NCBI GenBank assembly: GCA_017525235.1
Contig: JAFXTC010000029.1
Coordinates: 1 to 64,000 of the forward strand
Origin: Bacteroidaceae bacterium
Lineage (GTDB): Bacteria > Bacteroidota > Bacteroidia > Bacteroidales > Bacteroidaceae
Reading direction: 5' to 3'
Length of the DNA stretch: 64,000 nt
The stretch's first letter is position 1; each line of letters opens with the position of its first letter. The notes beneath the pieces were generated by a model that had not been told where the DNA came from, made no database searches, and was given only the letters and a program-made list of their open reading frames with translations. Position numbers and translations under genes: made by a program. Below are positions 836 through 16,262 of the stretch, one piece after another.

Positions 836-1159
836 ATGGATGTAACAAATGCCAAATCGCAGATGCGCAAAGGAATGCTGGAGTACTGCATACTCCTGCT
901 CTTGAAGCAGCAGGCGGCCTATGCCAATGATATCATCCAACGTCTGCGCGAAGCTGAGATGATTGTGATGGAGGGCACGCTCTATCCACTGCTGACGCGT
1001 CTGAAGAACGATGGCCTCCTTGCCTACGAATGGCAGGAGAGCACGCAGGGACCGCCTCGTAAGTATTATAAGCTGACAACAGACGGACAAGAAGCACTTT
1101 CCCAGTTGAATGTCAGTTGGGAAGAAATCTCAAGAACAGTAAATTTTCTTAAACAGTGA
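836..1159 (+). CDS. PadR-family transcriptional regulator
   Basis: A 107-residue PadR-type winged-helix protein. Seen: an N-terminal stretch QMRKGMLEYCILLLLKQQ, then ANDIIQRLREAEMIVMEGTLYPLLTRLKNDGLL, which matches the PadR recognition helix and wing, followed by PRKYYKLTTDGQEAL. It is the short form without a C-terminal extension. PadR proteins are usually repressors that bind inverted repeats in front of their own operon. It is followed after 48 nt by a PspC-domain gene, a pairing common in Bacteroidota and suggestive of envelope-stress control of that membrane protein. Candidate operators are the dyads at 647-718. Confidence 0.9.
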   Translation: MDVTNAKSQMRKGMLEYCILLLLKQQAAYANDIIQRLREAEMIVMEGTLYPLLTRLKNDGLLAYEWQESTQGPPRKYYKLTTDGQEALSQLNVSWEEISRTVNFLKQ

Positions 1160-1207: not shown

Positions 1208-2884
1208 ATGAAAAAGAATATCAGCATCAACCTGTTTGGAACATTATATAATATTGACGAGGATGCCTACAACCTCATGGAGAGCTACCTGCAGAGTATG
1301 CAACGCTATTTCAGTCGTCAGAAAGGCGGCGAGGAAGTTGCCGACGACATTGAGCATCGTGTAGCCGAACTGCTTTGGCAGAGACGCGAGGCTGGAATGA
1401 CTGCCATCAACATCGAAACAGTGAAGGAAATCATTGATACCATCGGCAATGCCGAACAGATAGCTGAAGACAGTGGCGAGGGTCAAGGAGCCATAAACGA
1501 AGGACAGGACGGGACCTTCAAGGAAAGCTTCTCGCAGTTCACAAAGGAAGCAGGTAGGTTTACCCGCGATGCATACGACAGGGGACGCGAGCATGTAAAC
1601 ACACATCATTTCTACCGTCGGACTGACGACAAGATTCTGGGTGGTGTATGCTCCGGAGCAGCTACTTATTTCAATTCCGGTGACTCTCTGGTATGGCGAC
1701 TCAGTGCTGTTGCAGGAACACTGTTGCTAAGTTGTATTGGCATTGGCCTTATCATTCCCGTTATCTATATTGTTTTGTGGCTCCTGGCTCCTATGGCTGT
1801 TACACCTGAGGACCGCTTGCGTATGCAGGGCAAGGAAATCACACCCGAGAATCTGGCTCAGCAAGTGAAGGAAGAATCCCAGCAGCCTGTTGTACAACCA
1901 AACAACAACGGTTGTGCCAGCGGATGCCTGAAGGTACTGCTCGTCTTCATAGGCGTGATAATCCTATTCCCCATCATCTCTTTTGCCATTGGCCTAATTC
2001 TTGCCATTATCGTTGTTGCCGGAATTGGAACGGCTATGGTGGGAGGCTTATTGGGCGGCATGCAGTTCTTCCCAGAATTCTCTGCCTTTGTCAGCACCTG
2101 CCAACCTTTGTTCCTTACTGCACTAATCTGCGGACTTATAATAGTAGTGCTTCCCATCTATGGTATCGTACGTTTACTGCGTGGCGGCAAGAAGATACGT
2201 GCCTCTGTCCTTTCTACCCTTATTATAGTATGGCTCATGGCTATAGGACTGGGTATTGCCTGCACGATAGGTACTGCTATCAAGGCCGATGAATGGCAAC
2301 GTACCGGCAGAGATAAGATAGAGTTCAAACAAAGCCAAAAGGAACTGAAGTCCATTGGATGGGAGTTGAAAGACTACACCAACCTTGATGAGGACTTTGC
2401 TGACAACAGAACAGGCTTTGCCGGTCTTCCCCGCTATGCCTTCAGACTTAACACAGACAAATACAGGGACCTTACCTATACAGCCGTATTTGAGAAAGAG
2501 GTGAATCTGCCCGAGGAAGGTGCATATCTCTTCATGTCTCTGACAGAAGGCTACGATGCAGGAATCACATACACCTTCAGCTATATGGATGGCGGGAAGG
2601 AGAAGGAAGCCGTGTTGCACCCTTCAGAATCGGGCCTTCACCTGAACAAAATGGAATGGGAAAAACTGGATGGCAGCTACATCTTCCCCCATCTTGACAG
2701 AGAAGACGAAAACAGTTGGTATCATTTCTCTCAGGAAGGAGAGGACTGGGTTTACCACTGGGAGAGTCTCCCCCATGTTGATGCCGGCAAGTTTAAAATC
2801 ACCATCATTGCCCGAGACTGCTCAGAAGATATCAAGATCCGCGATGTAAAAGTAGTAAAAACTGAAGAACAAGAAGCCAAATAA
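1208..2884 (+). CDS. PspC-domain multi-pass membrane protein
   Basis: 558 residues. Residues 1-95 form a soluble helical region (MKKNISINLFGTLYNIDEDA...) typical of Bacteroidota PspC proteins. Residues about 135-200 are a PspC domain (YRRTDDKILGGVCSGAA, then a long hydrophobic segment ending WLLAPMA). Three further hydrophobic regions follow at about 240-285, 300-325 and 330-355. The last 200 residues are soluble and probably lie outside the inner membrane. PspC domains are linked to membrane-stress sensing; the exact job here is unknown. It is the second gene of a padR-led operon, with only 7 nt before the next gene. Confidence 0.85.
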   Translation: MKKNISINLFGTLYNIDEDAYNLMESYLQSMQRYFSRQKGGEEVADDIEHRVAELLWQRREAGMTAINIETVKEIIDTIGNAEQIAEDSGEGQGAINEGQDGTFKESFSQFTKEAGRFTRDAYDRGREHVNTHHFYRRTDDKILGGVCSGAATYFNSGDSLVWRLSAVAGTLLLSCIGIGLIIPVIYIVLWLLAPMAVTPEDRLRMQGKEITPENLAQQVKEESQQPVVQPNNNGCASGCLKVLLVFIGVIILFPIISFAIGLILAIIVVAGIGTAMVGGLLGGMQFFPEFSAFVSTCQPLFLTALICGLIIVVLPIYGIVRLLRGGKKIRASVLSTLIIVWLMAIGLGIACTIGTAIKADEWQRTGRDKIEFKQSQKELKSIGWELKDYTNLDEDFADNRTGFAGLPRYAFRLNTDKYRDLTYTAVFEKEVNLPEEGAYLFMSLTEGYDAGITYTFSYMDGGKEKEAVLHPSESGLHLNKMEWEKLDGSYIFPHLDREDENSWYHFSQEGEDWVYHWESLPHVDAGKFKITIIARDCSEDIKIRDVKVVKTEEQEAK

Positions 2885-2891
2885 ACACACA

Positions 2892-5800
2892 ATGAAGAAA
2901 ACATTAATCATCGCCTTGTTGGCGATTACATTCTCGCTGACCACAAGCGCCACAAATTGGAGTGAGTTTATTGGCAAGCCACTGATATTGTATCGGTTTG
3001 GCGAGTTTCAGAACCATTGGTTCTCACGCTTTATCCCTACAAACCCCGCAGGGGCAAGGCCTGTGGAACAGCTGGTGCTTACCGACTCTACACACCTGGA
3101 GTGGAAATATGCCATGACTGGCGATTTCAAGCGCGAGTGCACCCTGCAAGATTCCATGTTGCTCTTAAAGGAGCCGTTACACGAGAATAACCACTTCAGA
3201 ATAGTTGAATGTAATGGAGAAGTCTTGCTGACGCAAGGTGATGATGGGTTGACGCGTGCCTTTTTCGTTCAGCAATCTCAGCCAGAGCTTTCTATGTTGC
3301 CTGCCTCGGTGGGAAGCAAGACAGGTTTCTGCAACGGGAAGTTGGACGACCTGCTGCCTGCTGTCACGGACATTACCTATAGCAGCCAGACGCCCATGGG
3401 AAGGAATTTCCTGTTCCACCTTCAGCCTTCCAACGAGGACAAGGCTTGGCTGCAAAGCACAAAGGAGGTCTTTGACGAAGCAACCGAACAGATAAAGGCA
3501 TTCGACATCAACCTCTTCCCTCATGGAAAACCCGTATTGGCAGATGTTCACCAGAAGGGCGTTGACGATTGCAATGCTATGTCGGTGCTGGCTGATATGG
3601 CTTTCCTGTACCCGGACTTTATCAAATCCATTATTCACAAGGAGGCGGCAGATTCGTTCCGAGTGGATATGTTCGACCCTGAGGGCCGTCCCATCATGGT
3701 GTGTGTTAGCAACCGGTTCCCTGTCATGGAGGGCGGCTATCCTATCTTCTGTGTAGGAGAGGATGACAGCTACAACTGGATTTCCATCATGGAGAAGGCA
3801 GCCATGAAGTGGATTAAGGTATATAATCACATCAACACCATCAGTGGCTGTAATGCCGAGATGATTACGCCTATGTTTACGGGCGATGGCCGGAGCTTCT
3901 GCATTCAGCCGGGTCGTCTGGAAAGTAAGGATCTGGCGCGTATGGTAAACACTTGTCTGGAACACGGCATGATGGTAAATGGTGGTTTCCTGAATTCCGA
4001 TATTCCACTGGACGGACACAAGACGATAGCCAAACACGGCCATTCGTTCCTTCCTCCGCAGCGTAAGGGCGCCCTTTATGCCATCCGTAATCCCTGGGGA
4101 GGCGGAGCAAATGATCATGTGATGAATGTCATGAGCGACAATACCGTTGTTCCCCCATTGATTGACATCCGCGTTATCAGTCCCGGTGCAGCTGCCCAAT
4201 TCTTCGACAAGAAGGCTATCCGCAAGAATCTCCCAAGGACAAAGGACGCAAGGGAAGAAAACTTCTATTCCAGCAACTGGCGCAATACAGCAACGGGCGA
4301 CTGGGAGATTGGTTTCTTCGACAGCCTTGCCATCTACGACTGCCAGTTCTGGAACTATAAACAAAAGCAGCAGAAGGGCGACAAGTACTCCTTTGTTCTG
4401 GAGAACAATGGTAAAGAGGTAACCGTTAACGTAGGAAACCTGAAGCATGGTCTGCGCAATATTGTCATAGACGGCAAGAAGGGGGAATATGAGGTTATCA
4501 CCTCCAGCACCCTGCCTGACTATCCCACCAAGGACAGCAGAAAAGGCTTTGTGGATAGCGGTTACAACCCAACGGACAGCGTGACCATCGTCGGCTGGCT
4601 AAAAGACATGCCCGATTGGGCTTGGCAAGGAGGTCACGAGTTCTCAGTAGCCTTCGATGACTTCTTCAAGACAAAAGAAGAGGGCGAATATACTAAAATG
4701 GACTCCCTAGGGCGATTCTGTTTCAAGATGTCGCTGCTTAACTCCTCACAAGTGTTTGTCGACTGGGGCCGCACTACTGCAAGCAGTGTACTGGAACCCG
4801 GTAAGACCTACTTCCTCCTGAACGACTTCAAGACAGGACAAAAGCTATGGATGGGTGATGACGTGCGCCTGCAGAACGAACTGCTGACATACCCGCATTC
4901 ATGGGATCAAGTGAGAATAAACCATGGAGAAGATGTTAAGATTGATGCTATGGTGCACTGGAGTCAAGCAGACAGCATCAGGAACAAGCAGACCGAAGAA
5001 TTGCGACAGCTCCTCGGCGCCCATCCCAACCTTTCAGAGCGTTATCTGGATTATATAAAGGGCTACCACCAAAACCTGCAGTTCTCTTCGATGATGACTG
5101 CACGTTTCTACACCACATTGCCACAGGGATACATGGACTACGTGACCCAGGAATTCTGGCTGAAAGCGCCAAAGCCCTATACGCTTTATCGCGATTTTGT
5201 CGACAGTAAAGCTGGCTACTTGAGGCAGGCTATGAACAGCCAGGGAAATATCGACGTCTCAGACCTTCTCATGCGCTACGAAAAAGAGGGGAAGCTTACC
5301 TTGAGTGCCGAGGAGAAGAGTAATCTGAAACAATACAAAACAGCATTAGAGCAAGTGATGGATGAAATCAATGCCGCCCAGACGAATGAAGACCGCCAGC
5401 GCATCGCCAAGCAGTTTAACGAAGGTCCATTGGTAGCAGCCGTTTCTGCATTGGCTCAGAAATACCCTGACCTTCTGCAGACCTATAGCTATCAGAGAGA
5501 TTTGGACTACATGGATTCCATCGGCACGGACCGACAACTGCGCGACCTCTGCCTCGCCTGTCTGCTATACGGTCAGATTGACGGCACACGTTCCCCTCTC
5601 AACCCCGCTGTGCTTTCCTTTGCCAAGGAGGAAATACAGATCCCGTCAGCCTTCGCTGCTGTCGAGACGCTCAACGACAAGTACCTTGCCATACAGCAAA
5701 AGGACATCTCCAAGGCTGCGAACCTCAAATCCAATGAGGATGTGGCCAACATGAGTGATGGTGAGCAGCTCCTGCGTAAGATAATAGAGCCTTACAAGGG

Positions 5801-6152
5801 GAAAATCATTCTGCTGGATATCTGGGGCACATGGTGTGGTCCTTGCAAGGAAGCCCTATCACACAGCCAGGAGGAATATGAGCGGCTGAAGGACTTTGAC
5901 CTCGTCTATCTCTACCTGTGCAACGGTAGCAGCGATGAATCATGGAAGAACGTAATCAAGGAATACGATGTAATGGGCGACAACGTAGTCCATTACAATC
6001 TGCCAAGAGAACAACAGAGTGCCATAGAGAATTTCCTCAAGGTGAACGCTTTCCCCACTTACAAGCTCATTGACCGCGACGGCAATGTCCTAGACGTAAA
6101 TGCCGATCCTCGTGACCTGGAAGGCTTAGCCCAACTGCTGGAAAAAATGTAA
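2892..6152 (+). CDS. Secreted calpain-like cysteine protease fused to a TlpA-like thioredoxin
   Basis: 1086 residues with a signal peptide (1-20, MKKTLIIALLAITFSLTTSA). Residues about 215-410 resemble the calpain (C2) protease core: Cys227 in VDDCNAMSVLADMA, a strand like V.V.NRFPV..GG, an EKAAMKWI helix, FTGDG, His384 in KHGHSF and Asn400 in IRNPWGG. Cys-His spacing is 157, the same as in mammalian calpains, and all three catalytic residues are present. Residues about 470-900 resemble the linker region of Bacteroidota TlpA proteins (YDCQFWNY, VVGWLKDMP-like, MGDDVRLQNELL). Residues about 950-1086 are a thioredoxin fold with WCGPC (Cys982, Cys985). It would act in the periplasm or outer envelope. 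It follows the PspC gene by 7 nt. The paralogue at 9651-12011 lacks the protease. Protease activity is inferred, not shown. Confidence 0.8.
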   Translation: MKKTLIIALLAITFSLTTSATNWSEFIGKPLILYRFGEFQNHWFSRFIPTNPAGARPVEQLVLTDSTHLEWKYAMTGDFKRECTLQDSMLLLKEPLHENNHFRIVECNGEVLLTQGDDGLTRAFFVQQSQPELSMLPASVGSKTGFCNGKLDDLLPAVTDITYSSQTPMGRNFLFHLQPSNEDKAWLQSTKEVFDEATEQIKAFDINLFPHGKPVLADVHQKGVDDCNAMSVLADMAFLYPDFIKSIIHKEAADSFRVDMFDPEGRPIMVCVSNRFPVMEGGYPIFCVGEDDSYNWISIMEKAAMKWIKVYNHINTISGCNAEMITPMFTGDGRSFCIQPGRLESKDLARMVNTCLEHGMMVNGGFLNSDIPLDGHKTIAKHGHSFLPPQRKGALYAIRNPWGGGANDHVMNVMSDNTVVPPLIDIRVISPGAAAQFFDKKAIRKNLPRTKDAREENFYSSNWRNTATGDWEIGFFDSLAIYDCQFWNYKQKQQKGDKYSFVLENNGKEVTVNVGNLKHGLRNIVIDGKKGEYEVITSSTLPDYPTKDSRKGFVDSGYNPTDSVTIVGWLKDMPDWAWQGGHEFSVAFDDFFKTKEEGEYTKMDSLGRFCFKMSLLNSSQVFVDWGRTTASSVLEPGKTYFLLNDFKTGQKLWMGDDVRLQNELLTYPHSWDQVRINHGEDVKIDAMVHWSQADSIRNKQTEELRQLLGAHPNLSERYLDYIKGYHQNLQFSSMMTARFYTTLPQGYMDYVTQEFWLKAPKPYTLYRDFVDSKAGYLRQAMNSQGNIDVSDLLMRYEKEGKLTLSAEEKSNLKQYKTALEQVMDEINAAQTNEDRQRIAKQFNEGPLVAAVSALAQKYPDLLQTYSYQRDLDYMDSIGTDRQLRDLCLACLLYGQIDGTRSPLNPAVLSFAKEEIQIPSAFAAVETLNDKYLAIQQKDISKAANLKSNEDVANMSDGEQLLRKIIEPYKGKIILLDIWGTWCGPCKEALSHSQEEYERLKDFDLVYLYLCNGSSDESWKNVIKEYDVMGDNVVHYNLPREQQSAIENFLKVNAFPTYKLIDRDGNVLDVNADPRDLEGLAQLLEKM

Positions 6153-7195: not shown

Positions 7196-8569
7196 ATGAC
7201 AAGGAAAAGACTTCTTATCAGCTGCGTGCTGGCATTCATCTCTGTTGGGACACTGCAAGCGAAAGACAAAAAAAGTGAGAAAATAAAGGAACACATAAGC
7301 AACCATTATAAACTCTCCGGCTTTGTGCGTAACTACTTCTCTGTGGATACACGCGAGAACGTAGCAGGTACAGGTGACCTTTTCAACTATCTGCCCAAGG
7401 ATAACAATTGGAACCAAACAGAGGCTGAGGCTGCCGTTTCCGGCGTACGACGCGAGGATCTGAACGCTCAGACCACCATGCGTTTCCTGTCGCTGACAAC
7501 ACGCGTGGGACTGGACATTAAGGATTATCACTGGGGAAAGACTAACTTTGGTGGTAAGATAGAGGCCGACTTCTATGCAGGCTTGACAGGCAGTACAGGA
7601 ACCGCCCAACTGCGTCTAAGACAGGCCTACATGACCCTTTCGTGGGACAGCCTGCGTATGAATGGCAATGCCCTAGCACGCGTAGACCTGCAACTGGGAC
7701 AAGCTTGGCATCCCTTGGCTGCCGACATGCCCGATGTGATATCACTTAACACGGGAGCACCTTTTAACCCCTTCAGCAGAACCCCGCAGATAAAGATGGA
7801 TGCAAGGCTGGGTAAATACTTCACCCTGACTGCCTCAGCACTTTGGCAGATGCAGTACACATCTGCCGGCCCTGAAGGCGCATCGGCCAACTACCTGAAG
7901 TATGCCTGCACGCCCGAAGCCTATCTGGGTCTTTCGTACCACCCTAACACAAATGTCTTGCTGAGGGGCGGAGTGGATATCTTGAGTATCTCGCCCCGAC
8001 ATACAGGAACTGTACAGGACGCTCAGGGGAACAAGGTAGACGTGAAAGTGAGCGACCGTATCACCACCTTCTCACCCTTCCTGTACCTGCAATACAAGTA
8101 CAAGGATTTCAGTCTGAAGGCCAAGACGGTATTTGCCCAGGCAGGCGAACACATGAATCTGAACGGCGGCTATGGCGTGAAGCGCATCAACGACGACGGC
8201 TCTTGGGAATATACCCCTACGCGTAACTCGTCTTCATGGATATCCCTGACCTACGGCAAGCAGGTGAAGGGTATTCTGTTTGCAGGCTACGTGCGTAACT
8301 TCGGTACTAAGGACGCTCTGGCCACCAATGCAAACGGCGACATTCAGGGCTTCTACTTCAGCAAGAACAGCTTTGCCACCATGAACCGTCTGTGGCGCCT
8401 CTCCCCCACTGTTCTGTTTACGTGGGGCAAATTCCAACTGGGTGCCGAATACGAGATAACATCGGCACAGTACGGAAAAGACCAAAAGGCCGACAACGGA
8501 CTGGCAGAAACAGACTTGCACTGGGTAACCAACCACAAGGTGCAGCTTATGACCAAATTCAACTTCTAA
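7196..8569 (+). CDS. Outer-membrane beta-barrel, porin-like
   Basis: 457 residues with a signal peptide (1-22, cleavage after LQA). The mature part alternates polar and aromatic residues as in a beta-barrel (KLSGFVRNYFSV, TNFGGKIEADFYAG, LRLRQAYMTLSW) and ends in VQLMTKFNF, a C-terminal aromatic typical of barrels recognised by the BAM machinery. The region YMTLSWDSLRMNGNALARVDLQLGQAWHP resembles DcaP-type trimeric porins. It likely mediates passive uptake across the outer membrane; the substrate is unknown. It is a single gene with its own promoter. Confidence 0.7.
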   Translation: MTRKRLLISCVLAFISVGTLQAKDKKSEKIKEHISNHYKLSGFVRNYFSVDTRENVAGTGDLFNYLPKDNNWNQTEAEAAVSGVRREDLNAQTTMRFLSLTTRVGLDIKDYHWGKTNFGGKIEADFYAGLTGSTGTAQLRLRQAYMTLSWDSLRMNGNALARVDLQLGQAWHPLAADMPDVISLNTGAPFNPFSRTPQIKMDARLGKYFTLTASALWQMQYTSAGPEGASANYLKYACTPEAYLGLSYHPNTNVLLRGGVDILSISPRHTGTVQDAQGNKVDVKVSDRITTFSPFLYLQYKYKDFSLKAKTVFAQAGEHMNLNGGYGVKRINDDGSWEYTPTRNSSSWISLTYGKQVKGILFAGYVRNFGTKDALATNANGDIQGFYFSKNSFATMNRLWRLSPTVLFTWGKFQLGAEYEITSAQYGKDQKADNGLAETDLHWVTNHKVQLMTKFNF

Positions 8570-8588: not shown

Positions 8589-9488
8589 TCAGTTCTTCTG
8601 AATCAGAAAAGTAACATTGTAGCCTCGTAGGGGATTCTCTGCGAGGCTTAATGTCATGCCCTGCATCATCAGTATCTGGCGCGAAAGAGACAATCCTATA
8701 CCCGAACCACTTTGTTTGGTAGTAAAGAAAGGTATGAATATCTCCTGCGCTACATCCAAGGGGATTACGTGACCATCATTGGAAAAAGACAGCCCCAGCC
8801 TCTCCCCTAACCCCTCCTCCGTGAGGGAGGAACTTTTGCTTATGCCTATTGTTTTTGCGGTGGCCTCGATTGCATTCTTTGTCAGATTTATGAAGACTTG
8901 GCGCAATAGGCTTTCGTCGGCTGAGAGGATAAAATCAGCAGGGATGTCTATATTCCACTGTAAATCGGGGTAAAGAGAGGCTATCCGCTTGCAGAACTCC
9001 AACATATTTACATCGGCTATCACAGGCTCCTGCAACTGGGTAAGTTTGCGATAGCTTTCCACAAAAGCGGCCAACCCAGAACTGGTATCATGAATGGCCC
9101 GAATACCCTCCTCGTAGGGTGAATCCTTAATGTTTGGATTCTTCAGATATGCCTGACTGATACTCTGTATGGGTGTAGTGGCATTCATGATTTCGTGCGT
9201 CAGCACACGTGTCAGCCGCTGCCACGATTCAACCTCACTATGTGCCACCAGCTTTTGTATTTCCTGCCCCATATCGTTCAGCACATTTTGCAGCGCCCGT
9301 TCGCCAAAGAACAGTCCCCGTGTAGGCAATCTGAATGTGAAATCCCTATGCCTGATGGCATCGCGCATAATCTCAGCTCGCTCCCTAAGCAGGCACTGGT
9401 GCCGATACCAATACACTATAGCCGCAATGGCAACAATAGCGGCAATAACACATATTATAATAATGTAAGGAATCAATGCTTTATCCAC
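8589..9488 (-). CDS. Short sensor histidine kinase without a periplasmic sensor
   Basis: 299 residues. One transmembrane segment (about 5-27) replaces the usual sensor region, followed by a linker, the H-box with His98 (LTHEIMN), N-box LTKNAIEAT, G1 box NDGHVIP, F-box FIPFFTTKQSG and G2 box GSGIGLSLS, so the catalytic core is complete. The start codon is GTG (9488-9486), 16 nt from a good -7 box. Residues about 219-230 (SSLTEEGLGERL) are encoded by a repeat element inserted between the N-box and G1 box, where most kinases have a short turn. Its likely partner is the response regulator at 15744, on the other side of an ABC exporter; this pairing is inferred from context. Confidence 0.85.
   Translation of the reverse strand: MDKALIPYIIIICVIAAIVAIAAIVYWYRHQCLLRERAEIMRDAIRHRDFTFRLPTRGLFFGERALQNVLNDMGQEIQKLVAHSEVESWQRLTRVLTHEIMNATTPIQSISQAYLKNPNIKDSPYEEGIRAIHDTSSGLAAFVESYRKLTQLQEPVIADVNMLEFCKRIASLYPDLQWNIDIPADFILSADESLLRQVFINLTKNAIEATAKTIGISKSSSLTEEGLGERLGLSFSNDGHVIPLDVAQEIFIPFFTTKQSGSGIGLSLSRQILMMQGMTLSLAENPLRGYNVTFLIQKN
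8799..8833. repeat. GC-rich palindromic element inside the histidine kinase gene
   Basis: CCTCTCCCCTAACCCC, TCCTCC, GTGA, GGGAGGAAC. It is homologous to 6240-6276 and is read in frame within the ATPase domain of the kinase. Confidence 0.7.
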
Positions 9489-9504
9489 TTTCTATTGTTA
9501 TGTG

Positions 9505-9536
9505 CAAAGATACCGTTAATTCCGTTTACCACCAAA
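9505..9536 (-). promoter_or_regulatory. Promoter of the histidine kinase gene
   Basis: On the minus strand: TTTG (9536-9533), 20-nt spacer, TATCTTTG (9512-9505). The leader would be about 10 nt before the GTG start. Confidence 0.65.
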
Positions 9537-9572
9537 TATTTTGGGGATTTGTTTATGGTTCACAAACAAAAC

Positions 9573-9606
9573 GAAAGCCCCCACGTTTCGCAACGCAGGA
9601 GCTTTC
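9573..9606 (-). terminator. Terminator of the thioredoxin gene
   Basis: Read on the minus strand, a 15-bp stem (with G-U pairs) closed by a GCGA tetraloop, then TTTTG. It lies 45 nt beyond the stop at 9651 and separates that gene from the kinase. Confidence 0.8.
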
Positions 9607-9650
9607 TTAGGCGCCAATAACTTTATTATTACTAAAACCTCAAACTAATA

Positions 9651-12011
9651 TCATTTCAATTTATCCAATAAGCGAACCAAGTCATCGATATCGCGAGCAT
9701 CTACTTCCAAGTCAAGCAGGTTGCCGTTACGGTCGATGAGTTTGAAGGTGGGATAACCATCAATATCAATGTAGCGTTCGATGGCTTGCTGCTGTTCGCT
9801 GGGCAAATTGTAGTGCGCAACATTATCACCGGTAACATTGTATTCCTTAATCACATTCTCCCACGCTTGCTGCGGACTGCCGTTGGCAAGATATAGAAAC
9901 TCTATGTCATAATCCTTCAGTCGTTCGTATTCCTCCTGACTATGCGAGAGAGCCTCCTTACAGGGGCCGCACCATGTTCCCCAGATGTCCAGCAAGACGA
10001 ACTTCCCTTTGAAGGGTTCAACAATCTTTTTCAACAGCGCTTCGCCCTCAGAGATATCTTTGAGATTGTCAGAAGACTTCAGTACCAGCTTATCAAATTC
10101 TCGATTTTCAATGGCCAGGTAGTGGTCGTTCTTCTTTTCTACCATTTCAATGCCAATGGGATTGCTTATCATTGCTTTTAACGTATCCAATATTTCGGGG
10201 AGCAATGGAGTGCGGTCGTGGTCTATCTCTTCATAAACCTGCTGAGAAATCCAAAGGCTTTTGAGGAACGGGTCGGCTCCCAGCGAATCCAGCCTGTGCT
10301 CCTGGTCTCTCATTTTGGATAAAAGTGCATACCCCTCAAATAATTTTTGTGCTTTTGCACCATTAAGTATGCCCCCTACCTTTTCTATAAGGTCGGCATT
10401 CTTTGTGTTTTCCTCCTCTGCAATACGTTTTTTCTCTTCTTCTGTGGAGGCTGCATTAAGGCGGGCAGTGGCCTCTTCAACAAAAGACTTCCAACACATC
10501 AGCAAGTCCAGTTCTTCGTCGTTTGCTGCTATTTCTTTCAAATGATCCATACTACTCATACTGAAAGTATAGCTGCGCTGTTCTACCGCATCGCCAAGAT
10601 AGTCTCGCAAGAAACGTCTGAGTTCGCGATGTAATGTGTAGGGCTTTTCTAGTTTTGTCCAGAAAGTGTCGTATGCATATTTGCGAGCGTTTTCAGGGAA
10701 CTGATAGTCTTTGCCTCTGAAGCGTGCCTGACCAAAATTGGCTGCCTGCTGCCAAAGTGTATTACCCTTCCTATACAGATTGTAGCGAGTGGAGAGTGTG
10801 GGGTGCTCCGTACACAGCTGGTCAATCTTAGCGTACTGTGCTTTTATTAGACTGTCAGACGAGGCAATATATCTATCGAAATCAGAATCCCCCCTCTCCA
10901 TGCGGATTGATTCCCAATCCACAGGGAACTTAAAGAGCTCGTTCTGCAAGCGGCAGTCGTCTCCCATAAAGTAACGACGTCCTTCTTTGAAGTCGTAGAG
11001 CAGGAAGTATGTCTTTCCAGGCTCAAGCATCGTCCGCATGAAGCAGCGCGACCAGTCGCAGAAGAACTCCGAACTGTTCAGCAATGGGAACTTAACTGTA
11101 AAACGACCCTGCTCGTCCAAGTCGGCATGAACACTCTCCTGTTCATCTGTGAAGATGTTCTCGTAGTCGAGATCGAAAGTCTTTTCTTTCTTATACTTCT
11201 CAGGCATATCCTTTATCCAACCCACAACGGTTACAGAATCAGCTTTATAGTTGGTATCCACAAAGCCTGAGCGAGTATCTTTTTGCGGGTAGTCGGGCAT
11301 GAAGCGGCTTGTTATCATATTGTACGAAGCCTTCTGGTCGCCAATCTGTATGGTGCGAGTACCTTTCTTGTCCTTGCCCACACTGACTATCAGCTCGTCG
11401 CTTCCGTTACTCATGACAATCTCTGCCTCCCCCGTCTTAGGGTTCACCTTTGATTTGCTGTAGTTCCAGAACTGGCAGTCGTAGATGACACAATCCTCAA
11501 AGAAGGCAATCTTCCAATCGCCCTTATCGTCGCACCAATACGAGGGGAATAACTGCTTCCAACGTTCCTCTACAGGCTTGATTCCCCAAATCTGCCAAGC
11601 TCCGTTGAAATCACCCTCAGAGAAGTCGAAGACCTTGGTGTCCTGTGGTAGCGGATGGAAATGAAGCACGACATCAGCCTTGCCATCCTTCCCTGTTTGG
11701 CAATGTTTGTCCAGTTCCGTTCCATCGGCAGAAATGAGGAAATACTGTATGTCGCCAACTTTCAAGAACGTTTTACTGGCGAACTGATACCAGTAATCAG
11801 AGTAATCCGACCGCTGCATTACAGTCATATACACCAATGTTTCTTTTTCCTTCAGTTCCACCTTGGTAATGTCAAGGGCAACATTAAAGTATCCGTCTCC
11901 GTAACTGGTTCCATACTCTGTGGTGGGATTCTCCCACACAACTGTTTTTTCTTTTGAGTGCCCTGTTGCAACGATGAGTGCCAGCAAAGCGATGATGAGT
12001 GTCTTTTTCAT
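9651..12011 (-). CDS. Secreted TlpA-like thioredoxin protein, paralogue of the calpain fusion
   Basis: 786 residues, signal peptide 1-19 (MKKTLIIALLALIVATGHS, the first 11 residues identical to the 2892 protein). Residues about 25-150 form a different N-terminal domain, beta-rich, with no calpain motif. From about residue 165 the two proteins align to the end: YDCQFWNY, SGFVD, VVGW-IKDMP, FPLLNSS, LEPGKTYFLL, MGDD-RLQNEL, and the thioredoxin domain with WCGPC (Cys681, Cys684) and EALSHSQEEYERLKD. Probably a periplasmic thiol-disulfide reductase. A strong terminator follows it. A TAACTTTG box (12095-12088) may be its promoter. Confidence 0.8.
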   Translation of the reverse strand: MKKTLIIALLALIVATGHSKEKTVVWENPTTEYGTSYGDGYFNVALDITKVELKEKETLVYMTVMQRSDYSDYWYQFASKTFLKVGDIQYFLISADGTELDKHCQTGKDGKADVVLHFHPLPQDTKVFDFSEGDFNGAWQIWGIKPVEERWKQLFPSYWCDDKGDWKIAFFEDCVIYDCQFWNYSKSKVNPKTGEAEIVMSNGSDELIVSVGKDKKGTRTIQIGDQKASYNMITSRFMPDYPQKDTRSGFVDTNYKADSVTVVGWIKDMPEKYKKEKTFDLDYENIFTDEQESVHADLDEQGRFTVKFPLLNSSEFFCDWSRCFMRTMLEPGKTYFLLYDFKEGRRYFMGDDCRLQNELFKFPVDWESIRMERGDSDFDRYIASSDSLIKAQYAKIDQLCTEHPTLSTRYNLYRKGNTLWQQAANFGQARFRGKDYQFPENARKYAYDTFWTKLEKPYTLHRELRRFLRDYLGDAVEQRSYTFSMSSMDHLKEIAANDEELDLLMCWKSFVEEATARLNAASTEEEKKRIAEEENTKNADLIEKVGGILNGAKAQKLFEGYALLSKMRDQEHRLDSLGADPFLKSLWISQQVYEEIDHDRTPLLPEILDTLKAMISNPIGIEMVEKKNDHYLAIENREFDKLVLKSSDNLKDISEGEALLKKIVEPFKGKFVLLDIWGTWCGPCKEALSHSQEEYERLKDYDIEFLYLANGSPQQAWENVIKEYNVTGDNVAHYNLPSEQQQAIERYIDIDGYPTFKLIDRNGNLLDLEVDARDIDDLVRLLDKLK

Positions 12012-12044
12012 ACCTTATTTATTTGTGTTTGTTTTTACTAATAC

Positions 12045-12068
12045 CTAAAGTCTAACGCTTAACGTCTA
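12045..12068. repeat. Heptamer array
   Basis: Units CTAAAGT, CTAACGC, TTAACGT upstream of the thioredoxin gene. Nearly identical to the array at 12930-12953. Confidence 0.6.
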
Positions 12069-12196
12069 TTTTTCGTGTGCGTGGACACAAAGTTAGGACG
12101 TTCCTTTGGGATTTCCACAGAAACGCCCCAAGAATTTTCTAATTATTTTGTTTTCTTAACGAATATTCTTAGATATTAAGACATTATTAGTCAAGG

Positions 12197-12232
12197 GTTA
12201 GAGTCTAAAGCCTAAAGTCTAGAATCTAAAGC
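12197..12232. repeat. Heptamer array overlapping the ABC ATPase stop codon
   Basis: Five units: GTTAGAGT-like start, then CTAAAGC, CTAAAGT, CTAGAAT, CTAAAGC. The last unit contains the stop codon (TAG on the minus strand at 12228-12226) and the preceding Leu codon of the ATPase. Confidence 0.65.
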
Positions 12233-12909
12233 TCCGCTTGCTCCACTATCTGACCGTCAAAGAGGTTGATGATACGGTCAGCATAGCTGGCATTGTGCTG
12301 TGAGTGCGTAACCATAACGATGGTGGTGCCCTGCTCGTGAAGCTGGAGCAGAAGATCCATCACCTCCTTGCTGTTCTTAGAGTCCAGATTGCCTGTGGGT
12401 TCATCAGCCAGGATAATCTTGGGATTGGAAACTACGGCACGAGCTACGGCGACACGCTGCTGCTGACCTCCTGAAAGCTGACAGGGGAAATGTTTGCGGC
12501 GATGCGACATAGCCATACGGTCAAGTATCTCCCCTACTCGCTTCTTGCGCTCCTTGGCAGGAACACCCATATAGAGCAAGGGAAGTTCCACATTCTCATA
12601 CACGTTCAGTTCGTCTATCAGGTTGAAGCTCTGGAACACAAAACCTATTACGCCCTTGCGGATATTGGTGCGCTCGCGTTCGCTGAGTTGGCTCACATCC
12701 TTGCCATCGAGCAAGTAAGTGCCTTCTGTGGGTGTGTCCAGCAGACCCATTATATTTAATAAGGTAGTCTTGCCGCAACCCGATGGACCCATGATGCTGA
12801 CAAATTCGCCGTTCTTAACTTCCAGGCTTACTTCGCGCAAAGCCCAGGTATCAATCTCTTCCGTACGGAAAACTTTCTTAATGTTTTGTAATTGTATCAT
12901 TGTATTCAA
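12226..12909 (-). CDS. MacB/LolD-type ABC transporter ATPase
   Basis: 227 residues. Walker A GPSGCGKTTLLN, Q-loop VFQSFNLI, signature LSGGQQQRVAVARAV, Walker B IILADEPTGNLDS and the H-loop VTHSQHN are all intact. The long Q-loop region and the ELNVYENVELPLLY segment place it in the MacB/LolD/FtsE class that powers mechanotransmission permeases rather than classic importers. It pairs with the permease directly upstream on the same strand (42-nt gap). Its stop codon is part of a heptamer array, and homologous arrays lie on both sides of the gene. Confidence 0.93.
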   Translation of the reverse strand: MNTMIQLQNIKKVFRTEEIDTWALREVSLEVKNGEFVSIMGPSGCGKTTLLNIMGLLDTPTEGTYLLDGKDVSQLSERERTNIRKGVIGFVFQSFNLIDELNVYENVELPLLYMGVPAKERKKRVGEILDRMAMSHRRKHFPCQLSGGQQQRVAVARAVVSNPKIILADEPTGNLDSKNSKEVMDLLLQLHEQGTTIVMVTHSQHNASYADRIINLFDGQIVEQAEL

Positions 12910-12929
12910 AAATTTTAATTCAAAATCAA

Positions 12930-12953
12930 CTAAAGTCTAACGCCTAACGTCTC
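12930..12953. repeat. Heptamer array overlapping the permease stop
   Basis: Units CTAAAGT, CTAACGC, CTAACGT, running into the permease stop codon. Same sequence class as 12045-12068, 885 nt away. Confidence 0.6.
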
Positions 12954-15501
12954 ATTCCTTCTTAATTATTGTTGCAGGATCTAATTTTGAAACTCGGTAT
13001 ATCTTGTACCCTACGGTCAGAAGGGTGACGAGGGCTATGAAAAGGATAGAGAAGGGTATGGGGAGCAGGAATTCCTTCATGTCGTCTGTATCTGTAATGG
13101 CAATCTTATCTCCCATTGCCAAAGCAAAGGCAACACATAAAATCAAGGAAACGAGGATGCTGATGAACAGGCAATAGATGTAATGCTTTCCGAACAACCA
13201 GATGATTTGCCATTGGCTGGCACCATGCGCCTTGCGGATGGCAACTTCCTTCTGACGTCCTCGTACATCCAGCGACACGCTGGAGAAGAGTGTCAGCACA
13301 ATGCACAGAACGGCTATGGCGGTCAGGATGGCAACTATCTGTAGTATCAACTCTAACATGCGAAGTTCTTTGAAGCAGACATCATAAAGGTTGTCCAACG
13401 GGGGGCGTGAAGTGGTGTAGCGGCTCAGCTCCTGATAACGTTCGCTCAGTTCTTTAACAGCCTCTTCATACTGTCCCTGCTTGGCCTGAACCACAACATA
13501 GTGGTGAAGTGACCAGCCTGTATCGCCATTCACAAAGTCCTCTCGCACACGGAAGTCAATCAGATAACTTTCAGAGAAGTAGCCCCGTTCTGTCACATAG
13601 AAGAATACAGGATGAAAATCGTTCCACATCAGAGAAGTAAACAACTTTCCCTGGAAGTAGCCCACACATTCTGCCTCTTTATCTTTCTCGATGATACGAT
13701 GTTGGGGGTACTTGGGTGCCTTCACGCCAAGTTTCTGTCGCAACTGTGCGGCACGCTCTGTGGGAACGTAGATGGGAATCATATCCTTGAGGGCAATCTC
13801 CCCCTTGGTAGCCGTTGGTTGAACCTCAAGGTCCAGTATCTCAAACAGGTGCTCGTCTGTCAAAACCGCCTGATAAACGTAGAAGCGCTGACCGTTCTCA
13901 TCCGTTTGTTCCCAATGGCGTCCTGGAGGTGTCTCTCCATCCTTTAGATACTGGCACAAAGGTAACGTAACGATGCTGGTGTAGTTCTGAACATGTGGAT
14001 AGTATGCCATTGAATCCAATACGCTGGTTCTCCATTCGTGCATATCCGAGACGATGCAGTTGCGGAAAGCCTCTGTGTTGGTGACTTTTGGCTGCATTTG
14101 TGATGAGTTGAACAAATCAGTGCCGAAACCAAAGGCAATGAACAGAAAAATGATACACACCGTCATCTGCAAGACGATGAGCAAAGTACGCCCTCGAGTG
14201 GAGGCTTTGTGGCTCTTGCCCACCACTTCGCTCAGAGGCTTCTTCACTACCTGTCGGATAGACAGTAAGGCTATAACTATCGTCAACAGGAATACAGCCA
14301 GACAAATCCACAACTCAGTTGTGTAAGTCAGAGGCATATTAAAATTAAAGAATTTTCCTGAAGCAATATTCTGGATGATGGGTATGGCATAGGACGCCAA
14401 CAGGTAGGTAAGACCCAACGTGAGCAGAGTGACAAAAAGGAATACAATTGCAACCTCCCACATCATCAAACTGAAAAGTTGACTCTGTTGTGCTCCCATA
14501 CACTGCCGCAGTCCCATCTCGCGCTGACGCAAACGGAAGAGTTGAATTTGCATCTTCAAGAAGCCGAACAATCCTATCAACAGAATGCTGCTAGCAACAA
14601 TCATAAGGAGCGAGAATTCCAACGCGCCGTTTCCTCGGTCGCGCCCTTCAAGCCGCACTTCATATTCAGGGAAAGCATTCTGCAACTCTCCTAACAAATC
14701 TGTTGGCTTTTTCCCTTTGGCCAAAATAAAACAGAAAGTCTTCTTATAGGGGCGGAAATGATGCCACTTATCTGCATTCAAAAACTCCTGCATCAGGTTG
14801 GTCACCACCAGCAGATTGTCCATAGCCAGCATCCAGTCACCAGTATCCACCACATCTATAATCTTGCCGTAGGCGGCTGTGGTGTCCACAACCACATCAT
14901 CGTCGTAATAGATGGTGTCGCCAACCTGATATTCTTTCAGAGTTGTACCAATCCTCCAGTCCCGCTTCAACTCGTCCGTGGTATAGCCGATGGGATTCAC
15001 ATCCAATCCGAAGGTGCGCTCCAGCATGCCTTTTGTCATAATCAGATCGCCAGGCTTCAGCACGGGAATACGCTTGCCCGTGATGACAGACCGCAACCCC
15101 AGATAGTGGAGGTATTCGGGTGTAATCAGGTTGATTTGGGTTGAGACGGAATGCGAATCGCCCTGCAAATCAAAAAAGGTGGCGATGGTTCCAAGCCAAC
15201 CATAGTTGAGATCGATGCACTCGATACTTCCGAGATGTTTGTCGTTGATGCGCTTCAGGATTTCAGGTCCCACGCACACAAGGCTGTCACCCTTTTGGTC
15301 GTAGAGTTGTACACTTTGGCGTTTGGGGTCGCCGTCGGTTCTGTAGAAACTTTCCCATGCTCTTTGGGTAAAAAGAAAGCCGATGCTGAAGCATACCATT
15401 CCCACTGCCAGGCAGAGCACCGCTATGATGTTCTGCAGCTTGTACTTCATAAGATTGCGCCATGCAATCCGAATGTTGTGAAAAGTTAGTTTCATCTTCA
15501 T
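12952..15501 (-). CDS. MacB-like/FtsX ABC transporter permease, duplicated form
   Basis: 849 residues. One transmembrane helix near residues 20-45 (NIIAVLCLAVGMVCFSIGFL), a large extracytoplasmic MacB-type domain, then an FtsX block of helices at about 300-425 (EFSLLMIVASSILLIGLFGFLK; REMGLRQCMGAQQSQLF). A further helix follows (about 435-455), then a second periplasmic domain and a final FtsX block at about 725-840 (VAIRKAHGASQWQI). Proteins of this size and layout are common in Bacteroidota. It likely exports a small molecule or peptide, or transmits force to a periplasmic partner; the substrate is unknown. The gene is divergent from the response regulator at 15744 across a 242-nt region with candidate operators. 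Confidence 0.88.
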   Translation of the reverse strand: MKMKLTFHNIRIAWRNLMKYKLQNIIAVLCLAVGMVCFSIGFLFTQRAWESFYRTDGDPKRQSVQLYDQKGDSLVCVGPEILKRINDKHLGSIECIDLNYGWLGTIATFFDLQGDSHSVSTQINLITPEYLHYLGLRSVITGKRIPVLKPGDLIMTKGMLERTFGLDVNPIGYTTDELKRDWRIGTTLKEYQVGDTIYYDDDVVVDTTAAYGKIIDVVDTGDWMLAMDNLLVVTNLMQEFLNADKWHHFRPYKKTFCFILAKGKKPTDLLGELQNAFPEYEVRLEGRDRGNGALEFSLLMIVASSILLIGLFGFLKMQIQLFRLRQREMGLRQCMGAQQSQLFSLMMWEVAIVFLFVTLLTLGLTYLLASYAIPIIQNIASGKFFNFNMPLTYTTELWICLAVFLLTIVIALLSIRQVVKKPLSEVVGKSHKASTRGRTLLIVLQMTVCIIFLFIAFGFGTDLFNSSQMQPKVTNTEAFRNCIVSDMHEWRTSVLDSMAYYPHVQNYTSIVTLPLCQYLKDGETPPGRHWEQTDENGQRFYVYQAVLTDEHLFEILDLEVQPTATKGEIALKDMIPIYVPTERAAQLRQKLGVKAPKYPQHRIIEKDKEAECVGYFQGKLFTSLMWNDFHPVFFYVTERGYFSESYLIDFRVREDFVNGDTGWSLHHYVVVQAKQGQYEEAVKELSERYQELSRYTTSRPPLDNLYDVCFKELRMLELILQIVAILTAIAVLCIVLTLFSSVSLDVRGRQKEVAIRKAHGASQWQIIWLFGKHYIYCLFISILVSLILCVAFALAMGDKIAITDTDDMKEFLLPIPFSILFIALVTLLTVGYKIYRVSKLDPATIIKKE

Positions 15502-15502
15502 A

Positions 15503-15520
15503 ATTGAAAGTTGAAAGTTG
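15503..15520. repeat. Heptamer array
   Basis: Units TTGAAAG, TTGAAAG, TTG immediately upstream of the permease start. Confidence 0.5.
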
Positions 15521-15563
15521 TTATTTGTTTGTTTTCTGATTTCGTAATGTGATTATCACGATG

Positions 15564-15571
15564 CAAAGGTA
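15564..15571 (-). promoter_or_regulatory. -7 box of the permease-ATPase operon
   Basis: TACCTTTG on the minus strand. No good TTTG lies at the usual distance; the upstream sequence is a heptamer array (15577-15608) that supplies a TTG every 7 bp, the nearest with a 17-nt spacer. Confidence 0.5.
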
Positions 15572-15576
15572 AAGCA

Positions 15577-15608
15577 ATTTTCAACTTTCAACTTTCAACT
15601 TTCAACTC
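15577..15608. repeat. Heptamer array
   Basis: Four units: TTTTCAA, CTTTCAA, CTTTCAA, CTTTCAA, then CTC. It fills the -33 region of the permease promoter. Confidence 0.65.
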
Positions 15609-15620
15609 AGAATTGCAGTT

Positions 15621-15661
15621 TGTCCAAACTTTAGACACACTTGTGTCCAATTATTTGACAC
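15621..15661. promoter_or_regulatory. Tandem 18-bp dyads, candidate response-regulator operator
   Basis: Copy 1 (15621-15638) TGTCCAAACTTTAGACAC; copy 2 (15644-15661) TGTCCAATTATTTGACAC. They match at 14 of 18 positions, and each is an imperfect inverted repeat (TGTC...GACA). They repeat every 23 bp, about two helical turns. The position is about 65-105 bp upstream of the permease start of transcription and about 80-120 bp upstream of the response regulator start. Binding by the adjacent Fis-type regulator is inferred. Confidence 0.55.
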
Positions 15662-15693
15662 TATAGGGTTTCTAGCCTCCTCGAAAAGAAATA

Positions 15694-15726
15694 TTTTTCA
15701 ACTTTCAATTTTCAATTTTCAATTAA
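15694..15726. repeat. Heptamer array
   Basis: Units TTTTTCA, ACTTTCA, ATTTTCA, ATTTTCA, ATTAAAG, ending 4 nt before the -7 box of the response regulator gene. Confidence 0.65.
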
Positions 15727-15729
15727 AGT

Positions 15730-15737
15730 ATTACTTT
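15730..15737 (+). promoter_or_regulatory. -7 box of the response regulator gene
   Basis: TACTTTTG matches TAnnTTTG. It ends only 6 nt before the ATG at 15744, so the transcript may have almost no leader. No clear TTTG is present at -33; the heptamer array occupies that place. Confidence 0.5.
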
Positions 15738-15743
15738 TGTACC

Positions 15744-16262
15744 ATGAAATACGGAACAATACTTGTTATAGACGACAATCCTGCCATCCTGACGGCTGTG
15801 AAGATATGCTTAGCCGGCACATTTGAACGTGTAGTAACTCTCAACTCACCAGAGAAAGCCCTTGTGATTATTGCGCAAGAGAATCCTTCCGCGATTCTGC
15901 TGGACATGAACTTCTCGCTTGGCGTAAACTCGGGCCAAGAGGGTATGATGTGGCTCTCGGCCATTCACCGTAAGTTCCCTGATATTCCCATTGTTCTAAT
16001 CACAGCATACGCCGATGTTAAATTAGCGGTACGCGCGTTGAAGAATGGTGCAGCCGACTTCGTGACCAAGCCCTGGGACAACGACGAGCTTATCCGTGTG
16101 CTAAAAGATGCCATCGATAAGGCGGGCGAAATTATTCCTTTGGATCAGTTGGAAAGCGAGCACGTGCGAAAAGTGCTGAACAAATGCGACGGCAACATGA
16201 AAAAGGCAGCCGACCTCCTAGGCATCAGTCGCCAAACATTATATAATAAGATTAAACCTTAG
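15744..16262 (+). CDS. Response regulator, receiver plus Fis-type HTH (no AAA+ domain)
   Basis: 172 residues. Residues 1-125 are a receiver domain: acidic Asp10-Asp11, phospho-acceptor Asp54 in ILLDMNF, Thr in LITAYAD, Lys in FVTKPWD. Residues about 133-172 are a Fis-like helix-turn-helix (LNKCDGNMKKAADLLGISRQTLYNKIK), as at the end of NtrC-type proteins. The central sigma-54-activating ATPase domain is absent, so the architecture is that of RegA/ActR proteins and it should not need sigma-54. Its likely kinase is the gene at 8589-9488, and the likely targets are the divergent ABC genes. It is followed 3 nt later by an esterase-like gene. Confidence 0.9.
   Translation: MKYGTILVIDDNPAILTAVKICLAGTFERVVTLNSPEKALVIIAQENPSAILLDMNFSLGVNSGQEGMMWLSAIHRKFPDIPIVLITAYADVKLAVRALKNGAADFVTKPWDNDELIRVLKDAIDKAGEIIPLDQLESEHVRKVLNKCDGNMKKAADLLGISRQTLYNKIKP

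Follow-up and report, generated by a model that had tools for sequence, protein, structure and literature searches.

The stretch analysed here, referred to below as the window, comprises positions 1 to 64,000 of contig JAFXTC010000029.1 (assembly GCA_017525235.1) from a Bacteroidaceae bacterium. Its open reading frame (ORF) at 2892-6152 on the forward strand starts with ATG, contains no internal stops and encodes a single protein of 1086 residues, in which a calpain-like cysteine protease domain precedes a thioredoxin domain of the ResA/TlpA type. A reading made from the sequence only had described it as a secreted calpain-like protease fused to a TlpA-type thioredoxin, and had proposed that the thioredoxin keeps the catalytic Cys reduced. 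The fusion is borne out by the analysis below. The catalytic centre, however, has been lost from four of the six such proteases that are linked to a thioredoxin of this type, and we tentatively interpret the protein as a thiol-disulfide reductase carrying an exchangeable front. The N-terminal, calpain-bearing part is called the head, and the chassis with its thioredoxin the tail; coordinates are collected in Table 1.

Table 1 Features of the fusion gene and of its neighbourhood in the window (aa, amino acids)
Feature	Position	Strand	Basis or remark
Calpain-like/TlpA-type fusion gene	2892..6152	+	1086 aa; ORF and domain searches
Signal peptide, residues 1-20	2892..2951	+	Probable cleavage between TTSA and TNW; lipobox Cys absent; judged by eye
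N-terminal domain, residues 21-140	2952..3311	+	Mostly beta, no Pfam family; in 9 of 9 head-clade proteins
Calpain-like (C2) domain, residues 141-440	3312..4211	+	Peptidase_C2 at 215-403; calpain-1 in PDB
Q221, Gln of the NQxxxxDC motif	3552..3554	+	Alignment
C227, catalytic Cys	3570..3572	+	Alignment
C320	3849..3851	+	Aligned with second Gly of calpain-1 LSGG, moderate alignment confidence
Residues 364-403, including H382, N400 and NPWG	3981..4100	+	Same 40 residues absent from 4 of 4 dead relatives
H382, catalytic His, first H of KHGHSF	4035..4037	+	Alignment with stand-alone C2 proteins
N400, catalytic Asn of IRNPWG	4089..4091	+	Alignment
Tail I chassis, residues 456-950	4257..5741	+	Beta-rich part, then long helical part; common to tail-only proteins
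ResA/TlpA-type thioredoxin domain, residues 951-1086	5742..6149	+	WCGPC at 981-985
PadR-family regulator	836..1159	+	Pfam; upstream of fusion, probably same operon; likewise in G122 and G047
PspC-domain membrane protein	1208..2884	+	Directly upstream, 7 nt gap to fusion
Paralogue with same chassis and thioredoxin, other N-terminal domain	9651..12011	-	In FtsX-ABC-TlpA gene row

The Pfam search that had been suggested places Peptidase_C2 at residues 215-403 with an E value of 1e-7 and 31.8 bits, above the cut-off of 23.8. A profile built from 12 head and stand-alone sequences (A1) finds calpain-1 chains in the PDB at E 7.3e-8; the window protein alone gave only thioredoxin-type structures among the 60 matches listed. 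At the other end of the protein, the predicted thioredoxin and its WCGPC motif are as described from the sequence: Thioredoxin_8 matches residues 970-1066 at E 6.2e-13, and Redoxin, AhpC-TSA and Thioredoxin barely exceed their Pfam cut-offs. Residues 951-1086 match 2lja (E 1.1e-12 by sequence and 4.3e-6 by Foldseek) and ResA (1su9, E 2.6e-5 by Foldseek), and the C-terminus groups by Foldseek with ResA and with Bacteroides thiol-disulfide oxidoreductases, the ResA structures having TMt of 0.63-0.68. The curated NCBIfam models for ResA (NF002854, 50.6 bits against 170) and TlpA (NF047696, 28.2 against 230) stay below cut-off, and none of the listed NCBIfam models reaches its cut-off in the window protein. 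Judged by these matches, the thioredoxin is a relative of ResA and TlpA, and is not filed as either.

Between the two domains, residues 456-950 match no Pfam family above cut-off, and are mostly predicted by AlphaFold2 from 55 aligned sequences with a predicted local distance difference test score (pLDDT) above 90. The thioredoxin domain is predicted with pLDDT of about 77-91, and the N-terminal domain with about 49-81 across residues 51-130 of the full-length model. Foldseek returned no calpain among the 50 matches listed for the full-length model; acetyl-CoA carboxylase chains that stood high in this list were discarded, their TM-scores being below 0.1. The architecture described from the sequence is confirmed, and secretion is probable, the signal peptide having been judged by eye. 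Several relatives of the head start similarly, with SASA followed by TDW at the corresponding place.

In the alignment of C2 proteins, C227, H382 and N400 align with the Cys-His-Asn triad, and NPWG is present. The sequence-only reading had the Cys and the Asn right, but had chosen H384 as the His; with H382 in its place the Cys-His spacing is 155 residues, not the 157 that had been claimed. H382 lies 18 residues before N400, as in most other C2 proteins, and at position 384 these mostly have Phe or Tyr. We take Q221 to be the oxyanion-hole Gln. The Gly of calpain-1 with which C320 is aligned presumably lines the substrate cleft. The comparison covered 47 other C2 regions, these being the 48 rows beside the reference less L002 (the window itself), and a subset of the C2 genes of the genus. 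Cys, His and Asn are all kept in 41 of them and all absent from four; the remaining two, from genomes G105 and G151, keep Cys and His, with Asp replacing Asn and without NPWG.

Relatives were sought in 139 genomes of the genus, its own included, using residues 1-456 as the query and E up to 1e-20, and 64 of these genomes gave a match. Nine proteins make up the head clade, namely those of the window, G122, G124, G105, G151, G159, G109, G051 and G047. A TlpA-type tail is linked to six of the nine: in the window, G122, G109, G051 and G047 it is fused, and in G159 the gene is split into two overlapping frames. The heads of G124, G105 and G151 stand alone. The fusion, which the sequence-only reading did not know as described, is real and unusual, and is found also in relatives of the same genus. 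The G109 gene is the same DNA as L003, from Bacteroidaceae bin RGIG3417 (goat reticulum), and the G159 gene the same as L024, from Bacteroidales bin RUG13701; the window bacterium has relatives in the ruminant gut.

Inspected C2 proteins outside the head clade have frames of 399-666 residues, with one of 904, and window-type thioredoxin tails are absent from all 25 of one set and all 7 of another, the two sets sharing one genome. In wider samples, each of which includes the genome of the window, a protein search found C2 matches in 33 of 399 genomes of the family (7 of 30 genera), and the Pfam profile found C2 in 6 of 393 genomes of the order and in 6 of 395 of the phylum. Besides the window, the sole C2 frame above 700 residues among these matches is the one of 904 residues in G1107, with no match to these thioredoxins. 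Four of the order and phylum loci (L191, L197, L198 and L199) have no match to the window C2 query and no frame matching either thioredoxin, and were left out of the count of 25. In a collection of viral contigs 201 stretches matched a pattern and no relative of A1 could be confirmed among them, so virus-borne spread of the head was set aside.

Two further observations concern the heads. An isolated frame of 66 residues in G032 (L155:6340-6540) matches only the His/NPWG end of the head, with 67% identity, and may be what is left of a once intact copy. In G105 and G151 a protein of 420 residues with no Pfam match is encoded immediately before the stand-alone head (L151:4805-6067 and L152:7296-8558).

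Four of the six TlpA-linked heads have lost the catalytic Cys, which is replaced by Thr in G109 and G047, by Val in G159 and by Gly in G051, and all four also lack the segment that corresponds to window residues 364-403, with H382 and NPWG. None of these dead heads exceeds the Pfam C2 cut-off: two match at E about 0.03, and two give nothing at E up to 1. They form one clade with support of 100/100, sister to the window and G122 (98/97), whose heads are 88% identical. The six together are supported at 100/99, and G124 and the pair G105/G151 branch outside. The head alignment has 372 columns without gaps. In 16 of these, including 226, 227, 319 and 320, the five non-dead heads share one residue and each of the four dead heads departs from it; a further 106 show the same residue in all nine proteins. 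At position 320 the five non-dead heads have Cys and the four dead heads Tyr.

The dead heads show purifying selection, and are seemingly not drifting. The ratio of non-synonymous to synonymous substitution rates (dN/dS) by the NG86 method is 0.24 for G051-G159, 0.17 for G051-G109 and 0.09 for window-G122; the corresponding YN00 values are 0.25, 0.19 and 0.11. Non-synonymous changes fall below the neutral expectation in each of four dead-head pairs, with p values of 1.8e-7, 4.4e-25, 1.6e-31 and 1.3e-30, which take codon differences as independent and come from pairs with branches in common. In the more divergent pairs the synonymous sites are saturated, and G051-G047 gives no dS. The N-terminal part alone has a weaker ratio for G051-G159, namely 0.43.

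The tails are of two kinds. Tail I is found on the heads of the window and G109, and tail II on those of G122, G051 and G047 and in the split gene of G159; CxxC is kept in all six. In a tail tree of 106 rows, built by a quick method, the tails I of the window and G109 lie in different branches: G109 belongs to a starred set of 12 together with the window paralogue at 9651-12011, and the window tail falls outside a larger starred set, of 81, to which both belong. As these comparisons have it, the head has been joined more than once, to tails of two kinds with separate origin. A single fusion event, with head and tail inherited together, is rejected because the window and G109 tails occupy different branches; the G109 protein is nevertheless the top full-length match to the window protein. 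At the junction of head and tail I in the window, a sequence comparison made without read data found no stretch common to both.

The gene of G159 is a mosaic. Its head is 87-100% identical in nucleotides to that of G051, and its tail is 97-100% identical to that of G047 over about 1,000 nt, dropping to about 0.8 at the end. The two frames overlap by ATGA at the place where G051 and G047 read through, and next to this about 37 nt present in G051 have been lost; given this arrangement, we do not prefer to see the split gene as the ancestral state.

Tails also occur without heads. Tail II is found alone in ten close relatives, in frames of 498-581 residues, and tail-only proteins are far commoner than heads among the fetched loci, in a search that leaned towards the tail. 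The paralogue in the window is 45% identical to the window tail. Its nucleotide identity over the tail is about 0.4-0.65, rising to 0.76 around CxxC and to 0.78 in the final three codons, and it is not supported as a recent source of the window tail. Two loci carry another kind of front (L021:894-2963 and L022:661-2730), in which the tail I chassis follows a short segment that by eye resembles the membrane helix at the N-terminus of FtsX-type permeases, in place of a signal peptide. In a frame of 1675 residues (L013:2947-7974), tail I is C-terminal to about 1000 residues of another, cytoplasmic-looking protein; two genes may have been read through as one here, or this may be another fusion.

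In three cases, those of the window, G122 and G047, genes for a PadR-family regulator and a PspC-domain protein precede the fusion; downstream of it, the window and G047 have GDPD and porin genes in common. The G051 fusion comes after FtsX and ABC genes, which is the slot held by the paralogue in the window. The stretches fetched for G109 and G159 show no PadR/PspC, FtsX/ABC or GDPD/porin neighbours. Chassis proteins with other N-terminal regions occupy similar slots, following PadR-PspC in L019, L057 (with one TlpA-like frame between) and L090, and following FtsX-ABC in the window paralogue, L025, L035 and L098; in L176 FtsX-ABC is followed by a tail II protein that has no such front. Among 145 loci with either tail, a count in which some places recur through overlapping fetches and some stretches are short, 13 also have PspC and 13 also FtsX within the fetched stretch, which is suggestive of an association.

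The row around the window paralogue spans 8589-16262. It contains FtsX (12952-15501, reverse strand), ABC (12226-12909, reverse), the paralogue itself, a histidine kinase-like gene (8589-9488, reverse) whose sole Pfam match above cut-off is HATPase_c, and a divergent short response regulator (15744-16262, forward) with receiver and Fis-type helix-turn-helix matches and no AAA match. Taken together, these genes resemble a unit for sensing and export that is equipped with a reductase of its own. The protein of 457 residues at 7196-8569 is by eye an outer-membrane porin, with no significant Pfam match; a homologue lies past the GDPD gene beside the fusion in G047.

Across this family the tails persist with their CxxC, the protease centre can be dispensed with, heads and tails have been joined repeatedly and the operon slots are similar. 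The constant element is the thioredoxin on its scaffold, and the variable element is the front. The reading that we prefer, and to which we give somewhat less than an even chance, is that of an extracytoplasmic thiol-disulfide reductase with an exchangeable front for handling clients, the front of the window and G122 proteins being protease-competent and that of the other four a pseudoprotease. The protein would be extracytoplasmic, probably periplasmic, with the ResA/TlpA-type thioredoxin on its long scaffold acting in the direction of reduction, and its likely job would be quality control of the envelope. The front would grip client proteins and the thioredoxin would open their disulfides; in the window lineage the calpain-like protease, with its complete triad, would then cut them ('reduce and cut'), and in the sister lineage the pseudoprotease front would probably serve only as an adaptor that binds clients for the reductase.

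The explanation offered from the sequence was that the thioredoxin, acting in cis, keeps the catalytic Cys of the protease reduced; it might also release a regulatory disulfide, possibly between C227 and C320 across the cleft, and in either case the result would be a redox-gated protease. In the window and G122 the triad is intact and strongly constrained, and for these two proteins self-reduction is a possible mechanism. The distribution of Cys and Tyr at position 320 is what would be expected if C320 served C227; C320 is aligned, at moderate confidence, with the second Gly of LSGG. However, the catalytic Cys is absent from four of the six TlpA-linked heads, as are His and Asn, and therefore self-reduction of a protease cannot be the general explanation of the fusion. 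C320 is present also in the three stand-alone heads, which have no thioredoxin, and calpain-like proteins of the genus with an intact triad stand alone without it; 41 of the 47 other regions keep the triad, and none of the 25 proteins checked outside the head clade carries this thioredoxin. We regard the redox gate as doubtful. A fuller version, in which a C227-C320 disulfide is a built-in gate opened by the thioredoxin of the same chain, and in which C227, C320 and the His/Asn segment disappeared from the sister lineage, where the body was retained as a pseudoprotease adaptor for the reductase, seems to us quite improbable. It is also unlikely that the protease is the business end, maturing or degrading envelope proteins, with the TlpA part serving chiefly as a scaffold to fix location and partners. 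The active head is strongly constrained and follows PadR-PspC in the window and G122, as does the head of G047, and the large chassis is modelled with high confidence, all of which would suit such a role; but the dead lineage keeps the tail and CxxC and not the protease, and tail-only proteins are far commoner than heads, with the bias of the search noted above. Finally, the head could be evolutionary debris, a functionless front left by a chance fusion, with the protease decaying in the dead lineage. The lost triads, the split gene of G159 with a tail that has no signal peptide and the isolated fragment in G032 would fit decay, but the dead heads hold long open frames under purifying selection, 106 head positions are invariant in all nine proteins and the head has been joined to tails of separate origin, and we consider this improbable.

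A number of points weigh against the preferred reading of a reductase with an exchangeable front. The protease of the window lineage is strongly constrained (dN/dS 0.09-0.11), and therefore cutting still matters there, which leaves some weight to the protease-centred reading. The separate tail frame of G159 starts, by eye, without a signal peptide, and its reductase may not be exported, which goes against the view that the reductase is the part retained. The known TlpA-linked heads number only six, the two named records among them are metagenome bins, and mosaic genes such as that of G159 could be assembly chimeras. PadR and PspC are envelope-stress genes, which is general background and not a result of this analysis. 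In the full-length model pLDDT is below 50 for most of residues 133-456 and nearly everywhere in residues 200-420, the part whose fold had been named as a check, and a head-only AlphaFold2 model from three head sequences has a mean pLDDT of 39.6. The head has no reliable structure model, and the homology to calpain therefore rests on sequence profiles, namely Pfam and, through A1, calpain-1.

As the order and phylum samples indicate, few bacteria in this part of the tree have a calpain-like protease unless they belong to the genus. In the present family such a protease has been joined to a thiol reductase more than once, and both active and inactive versions follow PadR-PspC genes. Active and inactive heads form a natural pair for asking whether the reductase needs a protease or only a binding surface, and a reduce-and-cut step of quality control outside the cytoplasm becomes directly testable.

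In the part of the open-licence literature covered by the search, no description of a calpain-thioredoxin fusion was found. The consulted portion of a survey of bacterial calpains (PMC4631099) does not contain the word 'thioredoxin' in its main text, and the partner domains given in its bacterial section include no thioredoxin. According to the same portion, most bacterial homologues consist of the peptidase domain alone, which is usually C-terminal; a signal peptide is predicted for 3 of 66, all but one are predicted peptidases, they have no Ca-binding sites, and Tpr was the only one with biochemical work at the date of the survey. Like bacterial C2 calpains such as Tpr of Porphyromonas gingivalis, the window domain exceeds the Peptidase_C2 cut-off and has Cys, His and Asn in the expected order. 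It differs from those described in that portion in being N-terminal, probably exported and fused to a thioredoxin, and the triad is absent in four of the nine members of its clade. Calpain folds kept without a working triad may have a precedent in the calpain-like proteins of trypanosomatids, for which the title of PMC7912814 asks whether they are devoid of proteolytic activity; those proteins are eukaryotic, and no link to thioredoxin was found in the part of that source consulted.

With thiol-disulfide oxidoreductases of the ResA/TlpA type the window protein shares the sequence and predicted fold of residues 951-1086 and the WCGPC motif, and it adds to them a scaffold of 500 residues without a Pfam family and the calpain-like front. 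Comparable in design are the chassis proteins that consist of a tail only, found in the same genus and in related ones and exemplified by that at 9651-12011 of the window. They have the same scaffold, the same thioredoxin and similar operon slots, but carry as their front a different region, of about 140-150 residues in most.

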